Shown here one piece after another: positions 246 to 9,025 of a DNA stretch of 9,731 bases (positions are counted from its first letter, which is position 1; every line of letters starts with the position of its first letter). The stretch is taken from assembly GCA_938045315.1 (NCBI GenBank), contig CALINM010000134.1, positions 1-9,731 on the forward strand. The letters are read 5' to 3'. Origin of the DNA: an uncultured bacterium (GTDB taxonomy: Bacteria; CALINM01). The notes under the pieces were generated by a model. The model was not told the origin of the DNA. It did no database searches and saw only the letters and a list, made by a program, of their open reading frames with translations. The position numbers and the translations under genes were made by a program.

Positions 246-3083
246 TTAAAAATAAATCCTCACTAATATATTGTCAATCTCGCACAGCAAATATCCCTGT
301 TTTCTATATAATTCGAAAAGTTCTTTAACTAACTCAACATCTCTTTGGCAATATAGTTTTAGTTTTTCCATTTCACCATTTCTAAACCATTGGACAGCTT
401 GTATACCATCTGAAATTTTTTCGGATTCAAGATTTACTTGTGCTAAGTGCTGAAGGCTTTTTCTTATATTTGTTTTTTCTTTAATTTTTTTTAAAATATC
501 AAAAGTTTTTACTTTTAGTTTTTTACCATAATATGCCGATAGTACTTTCAGATCAAAATCATCAATATTATATCCCACAACCAAACTTGCATTAATTAGT
601 TTTTCTATAAGTATGTGTACATCTTTTTCTTCATAAAAATAAAATTTTCCCCCATCATAATCATACAAAACAGCTATAGAAACACCCATAAGATGGACAT
701 TTTGCCAACCACCAACTTCATGGGAAAGATATTTTGTCTCAAGATCAAAAAAAACGATGCCTCTGTCTGGAAAAATCTCGCTTTCATTTTTTATCAATTT
801 TTCAGTAATGTAAATTTCTTTTATATTTTCTTGTTCATAAATATTAATTTCTCCCATAAGACCTTTTAATAAGAATATTGAACCCTCCTTATCAAGTGGG
901 TAGTTTTGAGAACCACATTTTGGAGAGTGAATACAGGAAGGGCAACCAAATTCACATTCACATTTTTCAAGTAATTGTAATGTTTTTTCTAATAATTCGT
1001 TAAATTTGTTAAAACCTGATAATGCAAGTCCAGCACCACCTTCATACCCATCATATACAAAGATTGTGGAGCTATCTGTTTGTGGATGAAAGGGATAACA
1101 AATCCCACCTAAATCAAATCTGTCACAAAGAATTATTGCAGGCATAAGTCCAATCATAGCATGTTCTGTGGCATGAAGAGAACCCATAAGATGATACTTT
1201 TGTTCCTCAATTCTTTTAATTATTTTTTTTGGTATTCTCAAGATAAATCCCCTAGTCTCATAAGTATATGGTGGGAGATTCAACTCTTCCCTTCCAATTA
1301 AGTTCTGATTAAATAAATCTTTCTTTTCATAACCAGTTACTTTTTCAGTAACTTTTAGTTTGCCATATAACAATACATAGTTATCTTCAATTCTTTCCCT
1401 TTCTATATTCAAAATCTCAGTATCTTTTAAAACATAGGGCCTTGTAAAATAACTACCCCTATCTTCATCTACCCAGACTTCCTTTTTGTTTATATCAAGA
1501 TTTTTTACATAAAAACTTTCTCCTCTATGAAGGTATATGGCTCCAGGGTGACATTCTGAAAAAACTCTTGGAGCACTTATATTTCCTATAATCTTCTTTG
1601 TTTTAATATCAATAACTGAATATGTTACTCCAGATTCCCTAATATTTATTTTGAGATGGGGATTCCTCTCTTTAGTAAAATATGTTTTCCCATCCTGGGA
1701 TTGAAAAATAGAACCATCTCTTATATTTTCAAAAAGTATATCTTTAAAATCGTCAATTTCTTCATATCTAATAGGCATCTCATAGGCTGAACAAATCAGG
1801 TGCTGTTTAGCAATATATGGGTTCATGGGATCTACAATGATATCTTCATACTTTTTCTCAAAAAATTCATCAGGATTTTTAACATAATATTGATCAAGGG
1901 CATCTTGCTGCATAACCATAAATATTCCTGCTGGTGCAATACCTCTCCCTACTCTTCCGGCTCTTTGGAAGGTATTAATAATTGAACCTGGATAACCTAC
2001 GAGGATGCAAACATCTAAATTACCTATATCAATCCCCAATTCTAATGCAGAAGTTGCAATAACCCCTAATAATTCTCCATTAAAAAGTTTTTTCTCAATT
2101 TCCCTTCTTTCTTCAGGCAAGTATCCTGATCTATAAGAACTAACTTTATCAGATAATCGGGGATAGCTTTTTTTAAAATTATTATAAACTAATTCAGTAA
2201 TTTTTCTTGCCTTAGTAAAAACTATTGTCCTTATCCCAGCCTGTACAAAATGGGAAAATAACTTTACAGCAATCCTATAAGCAGTTCCAGACTCAACTGG
2301 ATTTACAAAGAAAAAATGCTTAATAGGATTTCCTGCTCCATTTTGCTTCACTATTTCAAAGTTAAAACCAAATAAACTTTTGTGAAACTGTTCTGGATTA
2401 CCAATAGTAGCAGAAGTAGTTATAAAAACAGGATCTACATCATAATAATTGAGTATTCTTAATAGTCTTCTTATCACCCAGGATATATGGCTACCAAACA
2501 CACCTCTATAAGTATGAACTTCATCAAAGACAATATATTTTAAGTTTATAAAGAAATCTTCCCATTTGTAATGGGATGGTAATATTCCATAATGTATCAT
2601 ATCAGGATTGGTTATTAGGCAATTGGGTAAGTTTTTTCTTATCTTTTCTCTTCTATAACCTGATGTATCACCATCGTATATTTCACATCGAAAAAAGGGA
2701 GTTACTTTTTCAGCATTTTTTATCAGTTTCTCTTTTTGATCTTGAGCAAGAGCCTTTAATGGATAGATTAGCAAAAACTTAGAATTTTTATCTTCTGAAA
2801 ATTTCTTCAAAATTGGTAGATGATAAGATAAGGTTTTTCCACTTGAAGTAGGAGTAGATATACATACATTTCTACCTACAAGAATTTTTTCAATAGCTAT
2901 TTTTTGATGGGTATATAACTTTATATTTTGTTTTTTACAAAACTCTTCAATAAAAAAATCGTTTAAATTAGCAAACTCAGGTTCTTTTGAATCTATTCTC
3001 TTATGATATACGTATACACCACTTTTTTTTAAACTTTCGGCACATTCTATTATCTTCTCTTCTATTCTCCTAAAATTAGCCAC
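246..3083 (-). CDS. MrfA/YprA-like DEVH-box helicase fused to an MrfB/YprB-like DEDDy exonuclease
   Basis: This 945-residue protein holds two enzymes. Residues about 50-400 are a superfamily 2 helicase: LYTHQ (56-60), Walker A TPTSSGKT (77-84), DEVH (187-190), SAT (224-226), SALELGIDIG (345-354) and QRAGRVGR (373-380). Residues about 400-745 match the MrfA/YprA C-terminal region (DUF1998), with HATEHA (637-642), DGYEGGAGLA (678-687) and a Cys cluster C708, C710, C714, C717, C723 that probably binds a metal. Residues about 773-935 form an RNase H-like 3'-5' exonuclease: FFDLE (D780, E782), VGYNIDDFDL (D844) and YCQRDV (Y911, D915), the DEDDy pattern. In Bacillus subtilis, MrfA and MrfB are separate neighbouring proteins that act together in mitomycin C damage repair; here they are one chain, without the long C-terminal part of MrfB. 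The start is GTG at 3083 with GGAG 7 nt upstream, overlapping the preceding gene by 22 nt. No later ATG precedes the helicase motifs. Domain calls are strong; the repair role is inferred. Confidence 0.93.
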   Translation of the reverse strand: MANFRRIEEKIIECAESLKKSGVYVYHKRIDSKEPEFANLNDFFIEEFCKKQNIKLYTHQKIAIEKILVGRNVCISTPTSSGKTLSYHLPILKKFSEDKNSKFLLIYPLKALAQDQKEKLIKNAEKVTPFFRCEIYDGDTSGYRREKIRKNLPNCLITNPDMIHYGILPSHYKWEDFFINLKYIVFDEVHTYRGVFGSHISWVIRRLLRILNYYDVDPVFITTSATIGNPEQFHKSLFGFNFEIVKQNGAGNPIKHFFFVNPVESGTAYRIAVKLFSHFVQAGIRTIVFTKARKITELVYNNFKKSYPRLSDKVSSYRSGYLPEERREIEKKLFNGELLGVIATSALELGIDIGNLDVCILVGYPGSIINTFQRAGRVGRGIAPAGIFMVMQQDALDQYYVKNPDEFFEKKYEDIIVDPMNPYIAKQHLICSAYEMPIRYEEIDDFKDILFENIRDGSIFQSQDGKTYFTKERNPHLKINIRESGVTYSVIDIKTKKIIGNISAPRVFSECHPGAIYLHRGESFYVKNLDINKKEVWVDEDRGSYFTRPYVLKDTEILNIERERIEDNYVLLYGKLKVTEKVTGYEKKDLFNQNLIGREELNLPPYTYETRGFILRIPKKIIKRIEEQKYHLMGSLHATEHAMIGLMPAIILCDRFDLGGICYPFHPQTDSSTIFVYDGYEGGAGLALSGFNKFNELLEKTLQLLEKCECEFGCPSCIHSPKCGSQNYPLDKEGSIFLLKGLMGEINIYEQENIKEIYITEKLIKNESEIFPDRGIVFFDLETKYLSHEVGGWQNVHLMGVSIAVLYDYDGGKFYFYEEKDVHILIEKLINASLVVGYNIDDFDLKVLSAYYGKKLKVKTFDILKKIKEKTNIRKSLQHLAQVNLESEKISDGIQAVQWFRNGEMEKLKLYCQRDVELVKELFELYRKQGYLLCEIDNILVRIYF

Positions 3084-3679
3084 GAAGGATCTCCGCCTGC
3101 CTGAATCAATTCATCATAAATATCTACGCTTATTTTTTTATTAAGTTCATCTAAAGAAGAAATTGTTATTTTTATTGTATTTTCAATATCTCTAAGCCTA
3201 TTTTCTAATGAAGCTGCTTCAGTAATACTTTGAGAATCACCAATAAAATATGCTCTATTCCTTGCACTTTCTAATTTTTTAGATATATCATCCCTCTGGT
3301 CTTGAAGGCTCCGCAGTTCTTTTTCTTTTGATAATTTTTCATCCAGAAGAGCTTTATACCTTGCACGCCAATAGGCTGATGTATTACCAAACTTATCTTT
3401 TTTAATCTCCATCCCTTTAAATTCCCCTTTAGGTTTTCCATCTTGCTTATCTTCCATCATAGGCACTGGCTCAATCTCTTTTTTAATCACAGATTTAGAA
3501 CGTACTTTATATTTTTCAGGGATTAAACTCTCATCATCTACAAAATGCATAACACCCTGATCATCTATATAGCTATGTATATTTTGAGCTATAAGCTGAT
3601 TAACAAAGATAGATAACATTAAAATCAATACTAATAAACTAATTTTTAGCCCTACACAACCCAAATATGTATATTTCAT
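3062..3679 (-). CDS. Exported DUF4124 domain protein with C-terminal coiled coil
   Basis: The protein has 205 residues when started at the ATG at 3679, which has a strong AGGAGG 5 nt upstream. A longer reading from 3703 adds only eight residues and lacks such a site. Residues 10-31 are a hydrophobic signal segment ending near LIAQ, so the protein is probably periplasmic or envelope-bound. Residues 34-58 (HSYIDDQGVMHFVDDESLIP) are the short DUF4124 module, a two-strand motif with the typical Y-x-D-x-x-G-x-x-H/F pattern. After a charged linker, residues about 104-185 are rich in heptad-like Leu/Glu/Lys and probably form a coiled coil starting with YWRARYKAL. The tail (AGGDPSWL, 194-201) resembles the conserved ends of such proteins in Deltaproteobacteria. 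The gene starts inside the comF end (41 nt overlap), and its own end overlaps the helicase start by 22 nt. The family has no established function; a structural or scaffolding envelope role is a guess. Confidence 0.85.
   Translation of the reverse strand: MKYTYLGCVGLKISLLVLILMLSIFVNQLIAQNIHSYIDDQGVMHFVDDESLIPEKYKVRSKSVIKKEIEPVPMMEDKQDGKPKGEFKGMEIKKDKFGNTSAYWRARYKALLDEKLSKEKELRSLQDQRDDISKKLESARNRAYFIGDSQSITEAASLENRLRDIENTIKITISSLDELNKKISVDIYDELIQAGGDPSWLILGE
3091..3094 (-). promoter_or_regulatory. Shine-Dalgarno site supporting the GTG start of the helicase-exonuclease
   Basis: The minus strand carries GGAG seven bases before the GTG at 3083. It sits within the last codons of the DUF4124 gene. 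The next Met in the helicase frame is at residue 162, past Walker A, so this GTG is the only sensible start. Confidence 0.65.
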
Positions 3680-4373
3680 TGCATCCTCCTTTTTTAAGAA
3701 CATAAGATGCTTCTCTAATTGTTGCAGTAGTTGTAATTATATCATCAACTAAAATTATTGTATCAACGCTATTTTTTTTAGCAACTGAAAAAGCACCTTT
3801 TATGTTTTTAAATCTTTCTTCCCTACTTAAGGTCATCATTGGTTTAATTTCCTTTACCTTTATAAGATAATTGTATAAAACAGGAATTTTAACTATTTTT
3901 GAAAGTTCATTTGCTATAAGATGGGATTGGTTATATCCTCTTAATATTTTTCTAGCCTTTGATAAAGGAACAGGAACAATAAAAGATTTTCTTAAATCTA
4001 AAGTTTTAAAAAAATTAATTACTTTTTCTTTTATTGGGACAAAAATTTTTGGTATGTAATAATACCTTTGCCTAAATTTAACATCCTGTATCAGATCTTT
4101 TAACCTACCCTCATACCAAAATGGTGCATAAACCTGTTTAAAATCCGGTGGATTTTTAAGACATTCTCCACACAAAAGGTTATTATTTAGATTAGCGCCC
4201 TGGAGGGGGGTCAAACACTTAATACAAGTATTCCCTTCGAGAAAAGGAAGTTTTAAAATACAAATATCACAGATAAATTTACCTGGCTCTCCACAAAAAT
4301 AGCATTTTTCACCTATCCAGAAAGATATAAAATTATCGAAAAAAGCATTAATCTGTTTGAAAAAGTGATACAC
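3639..4373 (-). CDS. comF: ComF family phosphoribosyltransferase-like protein with double zinc-ribbon N-terminus
   Basis: The protein has 244 residues. The N-terminal third carries four CxxC pairs (C24/C27, C35/C38, C50/C53, C68/C71), enough for two zinc sites, as in ComF/GntX proteins. The C-terminal half is a type I phosphoribosyltransferase fold: PVPLSKARKILRGYNQSHLIA spans 134-154 with the RGxNQ signature at 145-149, and the PRPP-binding loop TIILVDDIITTTAT lies at 205-218. ComF is needed for uptake of transforming DNA across the inner membrane in Bacillus and Haemophilus; in many other bacteria its role is unknown. The start is GTG at 4373, inside the gpmI end (26 nt overlap), with only a weak purine stretch upstream, so reinitiation after gpmI is likely. 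No other start codon lies between it and the first Cys pair. Whether this organism is naturally transformable cannot be told from this window. Confidence 0.92.
   Translation of the reverse strand: MYHFFKQINAFFDNFISFWIGEKCYFCGEPGKFICDICILKLPFLEGNTCIKCLTPLQGANLNNNLLCGECLKNPPDFKQVYAPFWYEGRLKDLIQDVKFRQRYYYIPKIFVPIKEKVINFFKTLDLRKSFIVPVPLSKARKILRGYNQSHLIANELSKIVKIPVLYNYLIKVKEIKPMMTLSREERFKNIKGAFSVAKKNSVDTIILVDDIITTTATIREASYVLKKGGCNEIYIFGLCRAKN
3685..3690 (-). promoter_or_regulatory. Shine-Dalgarno site that decides the DUF4124 gene start
   Basis: The minus strand reads AGGAGG, then five bases, then the ATG at 3679. It lies inside the last codons of comF, so ribosomes finishing comF or free ribosomes can start here. 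It is the best-matched ribosome binding site in the window and selects residue 9 of the longest open frame as the true start. Confidence 0.85.
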
Positions 4374-6928: not shown

Positions 6929-8425
6929 TTACCTCCCCTTTGTATTTAAAAATTTTTCTTTATTATACAAAATTATATATTTAATTAAATCTTCTTTTTC
7001 CATATTCTCGATATCTGGTTTTAACCTATCAATAGTTTGATGAATTAAAATTGATAATTTTTGCTTTGATTCAACTAAATATAGATAGTCTGCAAGCTGA
7101 CATAATCTTTTTTTCCAAAAATCAAACTCGGGAAGGATTATTTCTCTTATAATTTTTCTAACAAACAGATGATCTCTCCATAAATCTTCATAGGGCTCAG
7201 TATCAAAATACCATTTCTCAATAATTTCAACAAATCTTATATCATTTAAAAGCCAATTATTATTAACTAAAAGATTGGTTAACTGATTATTAATAAATCC
7301 ATTAAAGAAAATATCGCCCTTCTCTTTTACTTTACATTCATAATTTTCAGGAATTAAATCTTCATAATTAAGAAAATAACAAAGGTAAGTAAAATGACAA
7401 GGAAATGGAATACCCATTTCATAGTGATTTTTTATAATATCCTTCAAAATAGCAAAAATAAAACTACTCTTTGCCTTTTTTAACTCAAATATACTTTCTA
7501 AATTACTATCACTCTTACCATAAAGATAACTATTCACTGATAAAAGATAAAAATTTGATACGGAGAGCAAAAACTTATTACAAGCACTAAAATCTTTTAT
7601 CTCAAAAAAAAGAAAAAACCCCTCATCTTTATTTAGATTTGAAATTTTTGTTTCTATGTTATATTTTTTTTCTAAAAAATCTGGTTTTTCTTCTTCATCA
7701 ACGCCTGAAAAATTCAATTTTTTTATGCTTCTATCAATCTCATGTAAAAATCTTTCAGGTAAAAAAGTTTTAGAAATTTTTAGCAAATATAACGATTTGC
7801 CAGTCTTTATACGACTTAACAATTTTATTGTTTCATTTATTGTTGGATTTGAACCAGTCCACAGAAGAAGATAACAAAGCTTGTAAACATTTTCACTGTT
7901 AAATGTGTCTATCTTTTCAATCAAACTCTCTCTCTCATAGTCAGTCAAAAAATAAAACGTATTAATAAAACTCACAGCTAAGGAATGGAAATGATCCTTA
8001 TCTTTCAGAAGTGTCTCAAGTTGTTTTTCAGCTTCGTTAAAATACTTCTCTATTAATGGATACAGCTCAATTTCTCTAATATTTTGCCCATAAAAATTTA
8101 AAAGATTAACGACACTATTTCTTAAAAATAAATTTTCCTCTATATTTATTTGAGAGAGATGTCTCAAAAATTCTGTATCATAAATGTTCATAATAAGATA
8201 CTCATATCTACTAATAATTAATGGATCCTTTTGTTGAGCAAAATTTTTCATTATGATGGTAGTAGCATGATGTTCATACTCAATTAATTTTTCTGCCATA
8301 TCTTCAATATCATCACAGGTTAATGATTTGCTTTTCTCCAATCTATTCAATAATTCTAAAACTCTCCTTCTGATTAAAAATAAAGAAGCTGTTGATAATA
8401 AACTACCTTTTTTGATTAAATCCAT
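6929..8425 (-). CDS. Uncharacterised, probably all-helical (HEAT-like) protein
   Basis: I do not recognise this 498-residue protein with certainty. It has no signal peptide or clear membrane segment and no cofactor or catalytic motif, so it is probably cytoplasmic. Residues about 35-125 have a helix-turn-helix rhythm (HHATTIIMKNFAQQKDP, then FLRHLSQ, then LRNSVVNLLNFYG) that resembles HEAT-type helical repeats. The middle (about 265-345) is rich in Phe, Tyr, Ser and Leu, and the C-terminal third contains WYFDTEPYEDLWRDH followed by a Trp-containing long helical region. Such helical proteins are often scaffolds, but no partner is evident. The ATG at 8425 lies 10 nt after the nitroreductase stop and has no clear Shine-Dalgarno site. 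The stop is 4 nt before gpsA, so the two genes are tightly coupled. That it is a real gene is supported by its long intact frame and its place in the operon; its function is unknown. Confidence 0.8.
   Translation of the reverse strand: MDLIKKGSLLSTASLFLIRRRVLELLNRLEKSKSLTCDDIEDMAEKLIEYEHHATTIIMKNFAQQKDPLIISRYEYLIMNIYDTEFLRHLSQINIEENLFLRNSVVNLLNFYGQNIREIELYPLIEKYFNEAEKQLETLLKDKDHFHSLAVSFINTFYFLTDYERESLIEKIDTFNSENVYKLCYLLLWTGSNPTINETIKLLSRIKTGKSLYLLKISKTFLPERFLHEIDRSIKKLNFSGVDEEEKPDFLEKKYNIETKISNLNKDEGFFLFFEIKDFSACNKFLLSVSNFYLLSVNSYLYGKSDSNLESIFELKKAKSSFIFAILKDIIKNHYEMGIPFPCHFTYLCYFLNYEDLIPENYECKVKEKGDIFFNGFINNQLTNLLVNNNWLLNDIRFVEIIEKWYFDTEPYEDLWRDHLFVRKIIREIILPEFDFWKKRLCQLADYLYLVESKQKLSILIHQTIDRLKPDIENMEKEDLIKYIILYNKEKFLNTKGR
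6932..6938 (-). promoter_or_regulatory. Shine-Dalgarno site for gpsA (GTG start)
   Basis: The minus strand reads GGGGAGG, seven bases before the GTG at 6924. It overlaps the last two codons and stop of the upstream gene. This fixes a GTG rather than ATG start, and the resulting protein begins MKVSVIGAG, exactly at the expected beginning of the Rossmann fold. Confidence 0.8.
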
Positions 8426-8435
8426 AAATCAAATA

Positions 8436-9025
8436 TTAGCTTAATTCAATAACAACATCTTTTAAAGATTTTTTTTGAGGAGTACTATTTAACATTAAAG
8501 GATAGCCAATAGGTATAAGTGCTAAAAGTTTATGCCCTGTATTTAAAAATTTTTCAATCTTTTCTGAAATTAATGACACTATTCCAAGCCATACTGCACC
8601 CAAACCAAGTTCTGTTGCCTGAAGTAACATATTTTGCACAGCTGCAGAAGCACTTTGCATCTCCATATTAAAAAAAACTTTTCTATATCTCTTTTCATGG
8701 TTTCGCCAAAATCTTCCGCTTCCATTACAAGCTCACCGGTACTAAAAACGCCTATAACTACTGGTGCTGAATAAATTGATTTTCCTGCCATTCTTAATAA
8801 GGTTCTACTTTTTCTTGGGAAATTGTTAGATAAATCATTGATCAAATCAGCTAATTGATTTTTTTTATTCTTCGAGATTATATAAAACTTCCATGATTGT
8901 TTATTATGGGCTGATGGAGCTAAATTACCCGCCTCAAGAACTTTCAAAATTAATTCTTTTTCAATTTCTCTATTTTCAAATATTCTAACACTTCTTCTTT
9001 TTCTTGCTAATTCTAAGAAACTCAT
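8436..9025 (-). pseudogene. Small FMN-dependent nitroreductase, split by a one-base frameshift
   Basis: Two overlapping frames encode successive parts of one nitroreductase-family protein. The first (9025 to 8579) holds LARKRRSVRIF (6-16), AGNLAPSAHNKQSWKFYII (32-50) and APVVIGVF (87-94), the FMN-binding and dimer region; it then runs into unrelated sequence after residue about 118. The second (8666 to 8436, open further upstream) supplies the missing end: SASAAVQNMLLQA, LGLGAVWLGI and ALIPIGYP. The total span of 590 nt is one base short of 197 codons. Adding one T to the T8 run at 8670-8677 restores a single reading of 196 residues, a normal size. The family reduces nitro compounds, quinones or flavin-linked substrates with NAD(P)H. 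The start is 3 nt after the preceding stop, with no strong Shine-Dalgarno site. It may be a sequencing error, a decayed or switchable gene, or read through by slippage; I cannot tell which. Confidence 0.88.
8670..8677 (-). other. Homopolymer frameshift site in the nitroreductase gene
   Basis: The coding strand reads AAG followed by eight T and then AATATGG. In the upstream frame the codons are AAG TTT TTT TTA, which contains the slippery heptamer T TTT TTA in the correct phase. A ribosomal shift of -1, or one extra U added by RNA polymerase, would enter the frame encoding the rest of the enzyme. I did not identify a stimulatory hairpin downstream. Confidence 0.75.

Follow-up and report, generated by a model that had tools for sequence, protein, structure and literature searches.

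A YprA/MrfA-type helicase fused in one chain to a DEDDy exonuclease, a probable housekeeping DNA-repair enzyme

The window, that is, the whole 9,731-base stretch of DNA analysed, is the entire contig C134 of a draft genome of 1.86 Mb with a GC content of ~31%, and it encodes a YprA/MrfA-type helicase and a DEDDy exonuclease in one chain. This protein is probably a housekeeping DNA-repair enzyme in which a flexible tether links the YprA/MrfA-type motor to a 3'-5' DEDDy exonuclease of the DnaQ fold. It belongs to an already known architecture, YprA helicases fused to YprB homologs having been mentioned in a 2025 preprint (PMC12458937), and its nuclease is, judged by sequence, not MrfB but a distinct DEDDy family.

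Domain layout of the fused protein

The open reading frame of the fusion (246-3083, minus strand) begins with a GTG start codon and encodes 945 amino acids with zero internal stops. The following features were detected:

246..3083, minus strand: gene for the YprA/MrfA-type helicase plus DEDDy exonuclease, 945 residues (open reading frame, Pfam, homologs)
2391..2912, minus strand: DEAD helicase domain, residues 58-231, with Walker A TPTSSGKT and DEVH box (Pfam, 3e-32)
1944..2246, minus strand: Helicase_C, residues 280-380, with motif VI QRAGRVGR (Pfam and alignment)
1635..1835, minus strand: HRQ1-type winged helix (WHD_HRQ1), residues 417-483 (Pfam)
930..1166, minus strand: MZB/DUF1998 zinc domain, residues 640-718, with Cys 708, 710, 714 and 717 (Pfam and alignment)
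771..851, minus strand: predicted flexible linker, residues 745-771 (structure model)
249..776, minus strand: DEDDy exonuclease, residues 770-945, with D780, E782, D844, Y911, D915 and EVGGW (RNase_H_2, alignment and model)

A sequence-only reading of this DNA had proposed a helicase and a DEDD exonuclease in one frame, and the stop-free frame, the Pfam matches and the homologs all support it. The residues that it named (D780, E782, D844, Y911, D915, C708 and C723) are found at those positions, and the domain search that it proposed returned DEAD, Helicase_C and MZB (DUF1998) in the full protein and RNase_H_2 in the isolated C-terminal piece.

Regarding the helicase half, the residues of the SF2 motifs (Walker A, DEVH, SAT and motif VI), which had been read as complete, are invariant among 30 aligned fused homologs. 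The DUF1998-type Cys cluster is likewise present, with C708, C710, C714 and C717 in an MZB domain scoring 79 bits against a Pfam cut-off of 24.2. A fifth invariant Cys (C723) directly follows this cluster in a CGSxNxPLDK motif (residues 723-733; window ~885-917, minus strand). The best match among solved structures is B. subtilis YprA/MrfA (6znp; 470 bits, E 1e-139, residues 45-720). The NCBIfam model TIGR03817 also covers the helicase, with 651 bits, but was not used for naming since this is below its cut-off of 874.

Regarding the nuclease half, the C-terminal 201 residues alone match RNase_H_2 (PF13482) with 31.9 bits, above the cut-off of 22, and are thus RNase H-like as that reading required. 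RNase_H_2 was not listed in the full-length Pfam scan of the 945-residue protein, and a six-frame search of the genome with RNase_H_2 missed the window nuclease; as the isolated domain passes the cut-off, both misses reflect the divergence of the domain. The six-frame search, which missed the window's own divergent domain, gave no further RNase_H_2 match in the genome, and so no MrfB was found there. The D, E, D, Y and D catalytic residues are invariant in the 30 aligned fused homologs, in agreement with the intact DEDDy core (D780/E782, D844, Y911/D915) claimed earlier, and an inactive nuclease is therefore unsupported.

Searched by sequence, the nuclease has only insignificant matches among solved structures, for which reason a fold comparison was needed. 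When the structure model of the isolated domain (pLDDT 94, pTM 0.89) was compared with known folds, family-B DNA polymerases came out best through their proofreading exonuclease domains (Z up to 14.3), together with T7 DNA polymerase and a DNA dinuclease; by this model the window nuclease has a DnaQ/proofreading exonuclease fold. The 50 top-ranking fold matches listed do not include MrfB (8UN9), an absence that excludes nothing.

The full-length model (pLDDT 85.9, pTM 0.73) predicts residues 750-771 with a pLDDT <50, and across the family CGSxNxPLDK and FDLET are separated by anything from 34 to 84 residues. Since the linker is predicted to be disordered and its length is variable, no fixed geometry between unwinding and strand removal, as had been supposed, is implied; both the structure prediction and the 34-84 residue range contradict it, and a flexible tether fits better.

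Occurrence of the fusion

An assembly error joining two genes, a doubt raised beforehand, is ruled out: the fused frame recurs in independent genomes, G001 (82% identity) and others. In a search of 60 genomes, the full-length fused frame was found at 82% identity within the same genus, at 56% within the same family and at 42-48% in seven more genomes of other families, the fused architecture holding among relatives to ~40% identity.

The helicase-DEDDy fusion is common, and the earlier guess that similar architectures exist was borne out by the genome scans and by PMC12458937. In a scan of public genomes, members of the nuclease family turned up at 546 loci or more. The best 80 of these were inspected: in 76 a single open frame also encodes the helicase, in two a contig edge interrupts the locus, and the other two encode the nuclease on its own. 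The isolates Desulfacinum hydrothermale and D. infernum are among the sources, as are metagenome-assembled genomes with the labels Planctomycetota (Scalindua), Gemmatimonadales, Myxococcota, Aerophobetes and others. The nuclease family was detected in 62 of 386 sampled genomes; 40 of the 62 combine a frame of 739-1142 residues with an MZB domain encoded in that genome, which puts the fusion in ~40 of the 386, and 22 do not, one of these (G227) having a decayed fusion remnant and another (G229) a frame cut by the contig edge.

Helicase clade and age of the fusion

A tree was built from 44 helicases, and its fused members (28/28) all lie to one side of a branch that has an SH-aLRT support of 99; B. 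subtilis MrfA and the MrfB-linked forms then sampled form a separate group. After enlargement of the tree by 20 unfused helicases, the support for the fused group was still 99 and the group included two others. One of these, L293, appears unfused in the enlarged tree, and its contig ends within the gene; the other, L290, is a complete protein of 756 residues inside the fused clade which has lost the nuclease and kept the CGSGNxPLDK signature. The L290 helicase persists without an exonuclease, so the coupling is not indispensable. A second, small group of MrfB-linked helicases lies near but outside the fused clade, and its MrfB partners are still DEDDh. Given these results for the helicase clade (support of 99, L290), the fusion looks like a single old event followed by occasional loss. 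The survey of fused and split forms suggested in the sequence-only reading places the fused helicases in a clade of their own, with B. subtilis MrfA, to which that reading had tied them, outside it.

The fused nuclease compared with MrfB

In B. subtilis, MrfB combines a DEDDh exonuclease and a C-terminal TPR domain (PMC11194089). At the family level, the description of the fused domain as MrfB-like therefore does not hold, as the domain is DEDDy and not DEDDh, has no TPR region and is not encoded by a separate gene. Just ~30 residues follow the last catalytic motif, which agrees with the absence of an MrfB-like C-terminal extension noted before, hence no TPR region; some MrfB partners of unfused MrfA are likewise short. 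The fused family has the signatures FDLET, EVGGW and YCxxDV, with Tyr911 located in YCxxDV, and the DEDDh histidine (HNxxD) is absent from the window protein. Nearly all MrfB partners of unfused MrfA have HNxxD, with one RNxxD and one HGxxD.

The best surviving alternative, though an unlikely one, is that a true MrfB was fused to MrfA and later underwent a change of His to Tyr and loss of the TPR tail. The order of the genes, MrfA then MrfB, would make such a fusion simple, the preprint names such fusions MrfB/YprB homologs (PMC12458937), and in a profile comparison the fused domain is distantly homologous to the MrfB partners (probability ~96%). However, the catalytic class is another one (Tyr versus His), the signatures differ (EVGGW and YCxxDV versus HNxxD), and RNase_H_2 scores are ~23-39 bits for the fused domains versus ~92-137 for MrfB-type proteins; moreover, the DEDDy family has stand-alone members outside any MrfA context, and the MrfB partners closest to the fused clade remain DEDDh. 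A distinct DEDDy family, a distinction from MrfB that is absent from the literature searched, thus remains the preferred reading of the fused nuclease. Its sequence is compatible with recruitment independent of MrfB or with a common ancestral partner of both, and the exonuclease tree, which has mostly weak support, agrees with either direction, fusion or separation.

Stand-alone relatives of the nuclease

The DEDDy family is near-universal in two phyla, those of genomes G082 (47/52 genomes) and G271 (41/46 genomes), whose stand-alone members (L215-L274) are ~200 residues long. MZB matches were found in none of the 20 clear stand-alone genomes of the 386-genome sample (a chance of ~0.0007 on an assumption of independence, which fails). 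Near the protein end, the pattern Q[LMI]x[LM]F was detected in 9 of 25 stand-alone frames, likely start sites counted, versus 0.2 expected by shuffling, and in none of 108 fused proteins, for which 3.5 were expected. In the G082 phylum, Q(M/L)(S/T)LF lies at the C-terminus or at most one residue from it in all 30 sampled stand-alone proteins (0.25 expected), and in the G271 phylum most of 30 stand-alone proteins end in QxxLF variants (QYKLF, QFSLF, QQSLF), four of the 30 having the strict pattern; genomes sampled within a phylum are related, so these counts are not independent events. We take this terminal peptide to resemble the bacterial beta-clamp-binding motif, and QLSLF occurs in the clamp literature. 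The clamp-motif pattern of the stand-alone nucleases is absent from the literature searched.

These sequence patterns suggest two alternative tethers for the DEDDy nuclease, a helicase or a putative clamp peptide. We lean slightly towards a wider reading in which the DEDDy family would be tethered by fusion to an MrfA-type helicase or, where the helicase is absent, by a QxxLF clamp peptide, and in which the pairing of YprA with an exonuclease would have arisen twice, once with the DEDDh nuclease MrfB as a separate protein and once with the fused DEDDy nuclease. The clamp-motif pattern hints that the exonuclease has a replication- or repair-linked role of its own, near-universal in two phyla.

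Proposed function

In mitomycin C repair, the helicase MrfA works 3'-5', and so does the exonuclease MrfB (PMC12458937, PMC11194089). As both proceed 3' to 5', the fused motor and nuclease would, if alike, travel along one strand in a common direction. Judged from its homology to MrfA, the motor would load on single-stranded DNA, move 3' to 5' and open the damaged duplex, while the exonuclease, probably recruited from a DEDDy family with free-standing members, would follow the motor and degrade that strand from its 3' end; the damaged stretch would thereby be removed, leaving room for resynthesis. The domains, active-site residues, fold, clade and distribution are shown by the data above; in this scheme we infer the polarity of the helicase, the polarity and substrate of the exonuclease, the same-strand coupling and the role in lesion removal. 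The genome also encodes UvrA, so the fused enzyme would add to standard excision repair and not replace it.

Like some other enzymes of the DEDDy class, the nuclease could instead act on RNA or an RNA-DNA hybrid, and the protein would then work at stalled forks and not on damaged DNA. RNase D and NrnC are RNases of the same fold and DEDDy class (PMC11194089), but the top structural matches of the window nuclease are proofreading domains of DNA polymerases and a DNA dinuclease, and the attached motor is by homology a DNA helicase, which makes an RNA substrate rather improbable beside the repair of damaged DNA.

Neighbouring genes

The neighbours of the fused gene in the window encode iPGM, GpsA, ComF, an Slp lipoprotein and a nitroreductase (Pfam, NCBIfam). 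Relative to the fused helicase, comF (window 3639-4373) is two genes upstream here and downstream in ~15 other loci (L071, L075, L090, L117, L144 and others), mostly of Desulfobacterota, and in those loci examined a small Cys-rich gene, YkgJ-like by eye, lies between the two. The gene immediately upstream (3062-3703, minus strand) overlaps the helicase start by 22 bases, which suggests translational coupling; its product is DUF4124-like by eye, and Pfam gave no significant match. The nitroreductase gene is broken into two frames that overlap, 8579-9025 and 8436-8666 (window 8436-9025, minus strand), each matching part of the Pfam domain, and this is either a real frameshift or a sequencing error. 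No significant Pfam or NCBIfam match was found for the 498-residue protein encoded at 6929-8425 on the minus strand.

A role in anti-phage defence, as in the nuclease-fused YprA helicases of ARMADA, Druantia and TALON, is very improbable even though the helicases of those YprA branches typically carry a nuclease fused at the C-terminus (PMC12458937), as the window protein has the length and layout of the repair branch with no inserted BrxA-like or extra zinc domains (Pfam), is closely akin in sequence to MrfA, has housekeeping neighbours (comF, iPGM, gpsA), and carries an active-type DEDDy domain, not the Vsr, PLD, PD-(D/E)xK or inactivated RNase H nucleases described for the defence branches. 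None of the partners expected of a defence operon (methylase, BrxHII helicase, PLD nuclease; cf. ARMADA, Druantia, DISARM) is present among the window neighbours, and no conserved linkage to defence genes was seen in relatives.

Comparison with known systems

The housekeeping repair enzyme proposed here resembles MrfA/MrfB (YprA/YprB) of B. subtilis in its homologous helicase, in a DnaQ-fold 3'-5' exonuclease partner and in a likely repair role. It differs in being one chain, whereas MrfA and MrfB are two separate proteins, MrfB being DEDDh with a TPR tail (PMC11194089) and MrfA belonging to another clade. The fusion had been taken to argue strongly that MrfA and MrfB act as one machine; as the fused helicases are separate from B. 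subtilis MrfA, and the nuclease is not of the MrfB family, it is weak evidence on that point. The YprA-YprB fusions of PMC12458937 have the same general architecture, fall within the YprA repair branch and probably include the clade of the window protein; in its main text, that preprint does not assign the fused nuclease to a catalytic class or to a family of its own, nor does it describe its structure. A likely mis-annotation is thereby corrected, such fusions not being simply MrfA plus MrfB, and the fusion offers a single-protein system for studying the cooperation of a 3'-5' helicase and a 3'-5' exonuclease, with cultured sources such as Desulfacinum.

The exonuclease-containing DinG of Staphylococcus aureus and B. 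subtilis is likewise a single-chain bacterial protein with a DEDD exonuclease and an SF2 helicase, and it protects against mitomycin C (PMC12345164). In DinG the exonuclease is DEDDh and N-terminal and the helicase is XPD-like and runs 5'-3', so that polarity and domain order are opposite to those of the window protein. Human WRN combines a 3'-5' exonuclease and a 3'-5' SF2 helicase in one chain, as proposed for the window protein, and differs in its RecQ helicase and N-terminal exonuclease, which represent an unrelated fusion event. The WRN exonuclease belongs to the DnaQ superfamily (PMC11194089).
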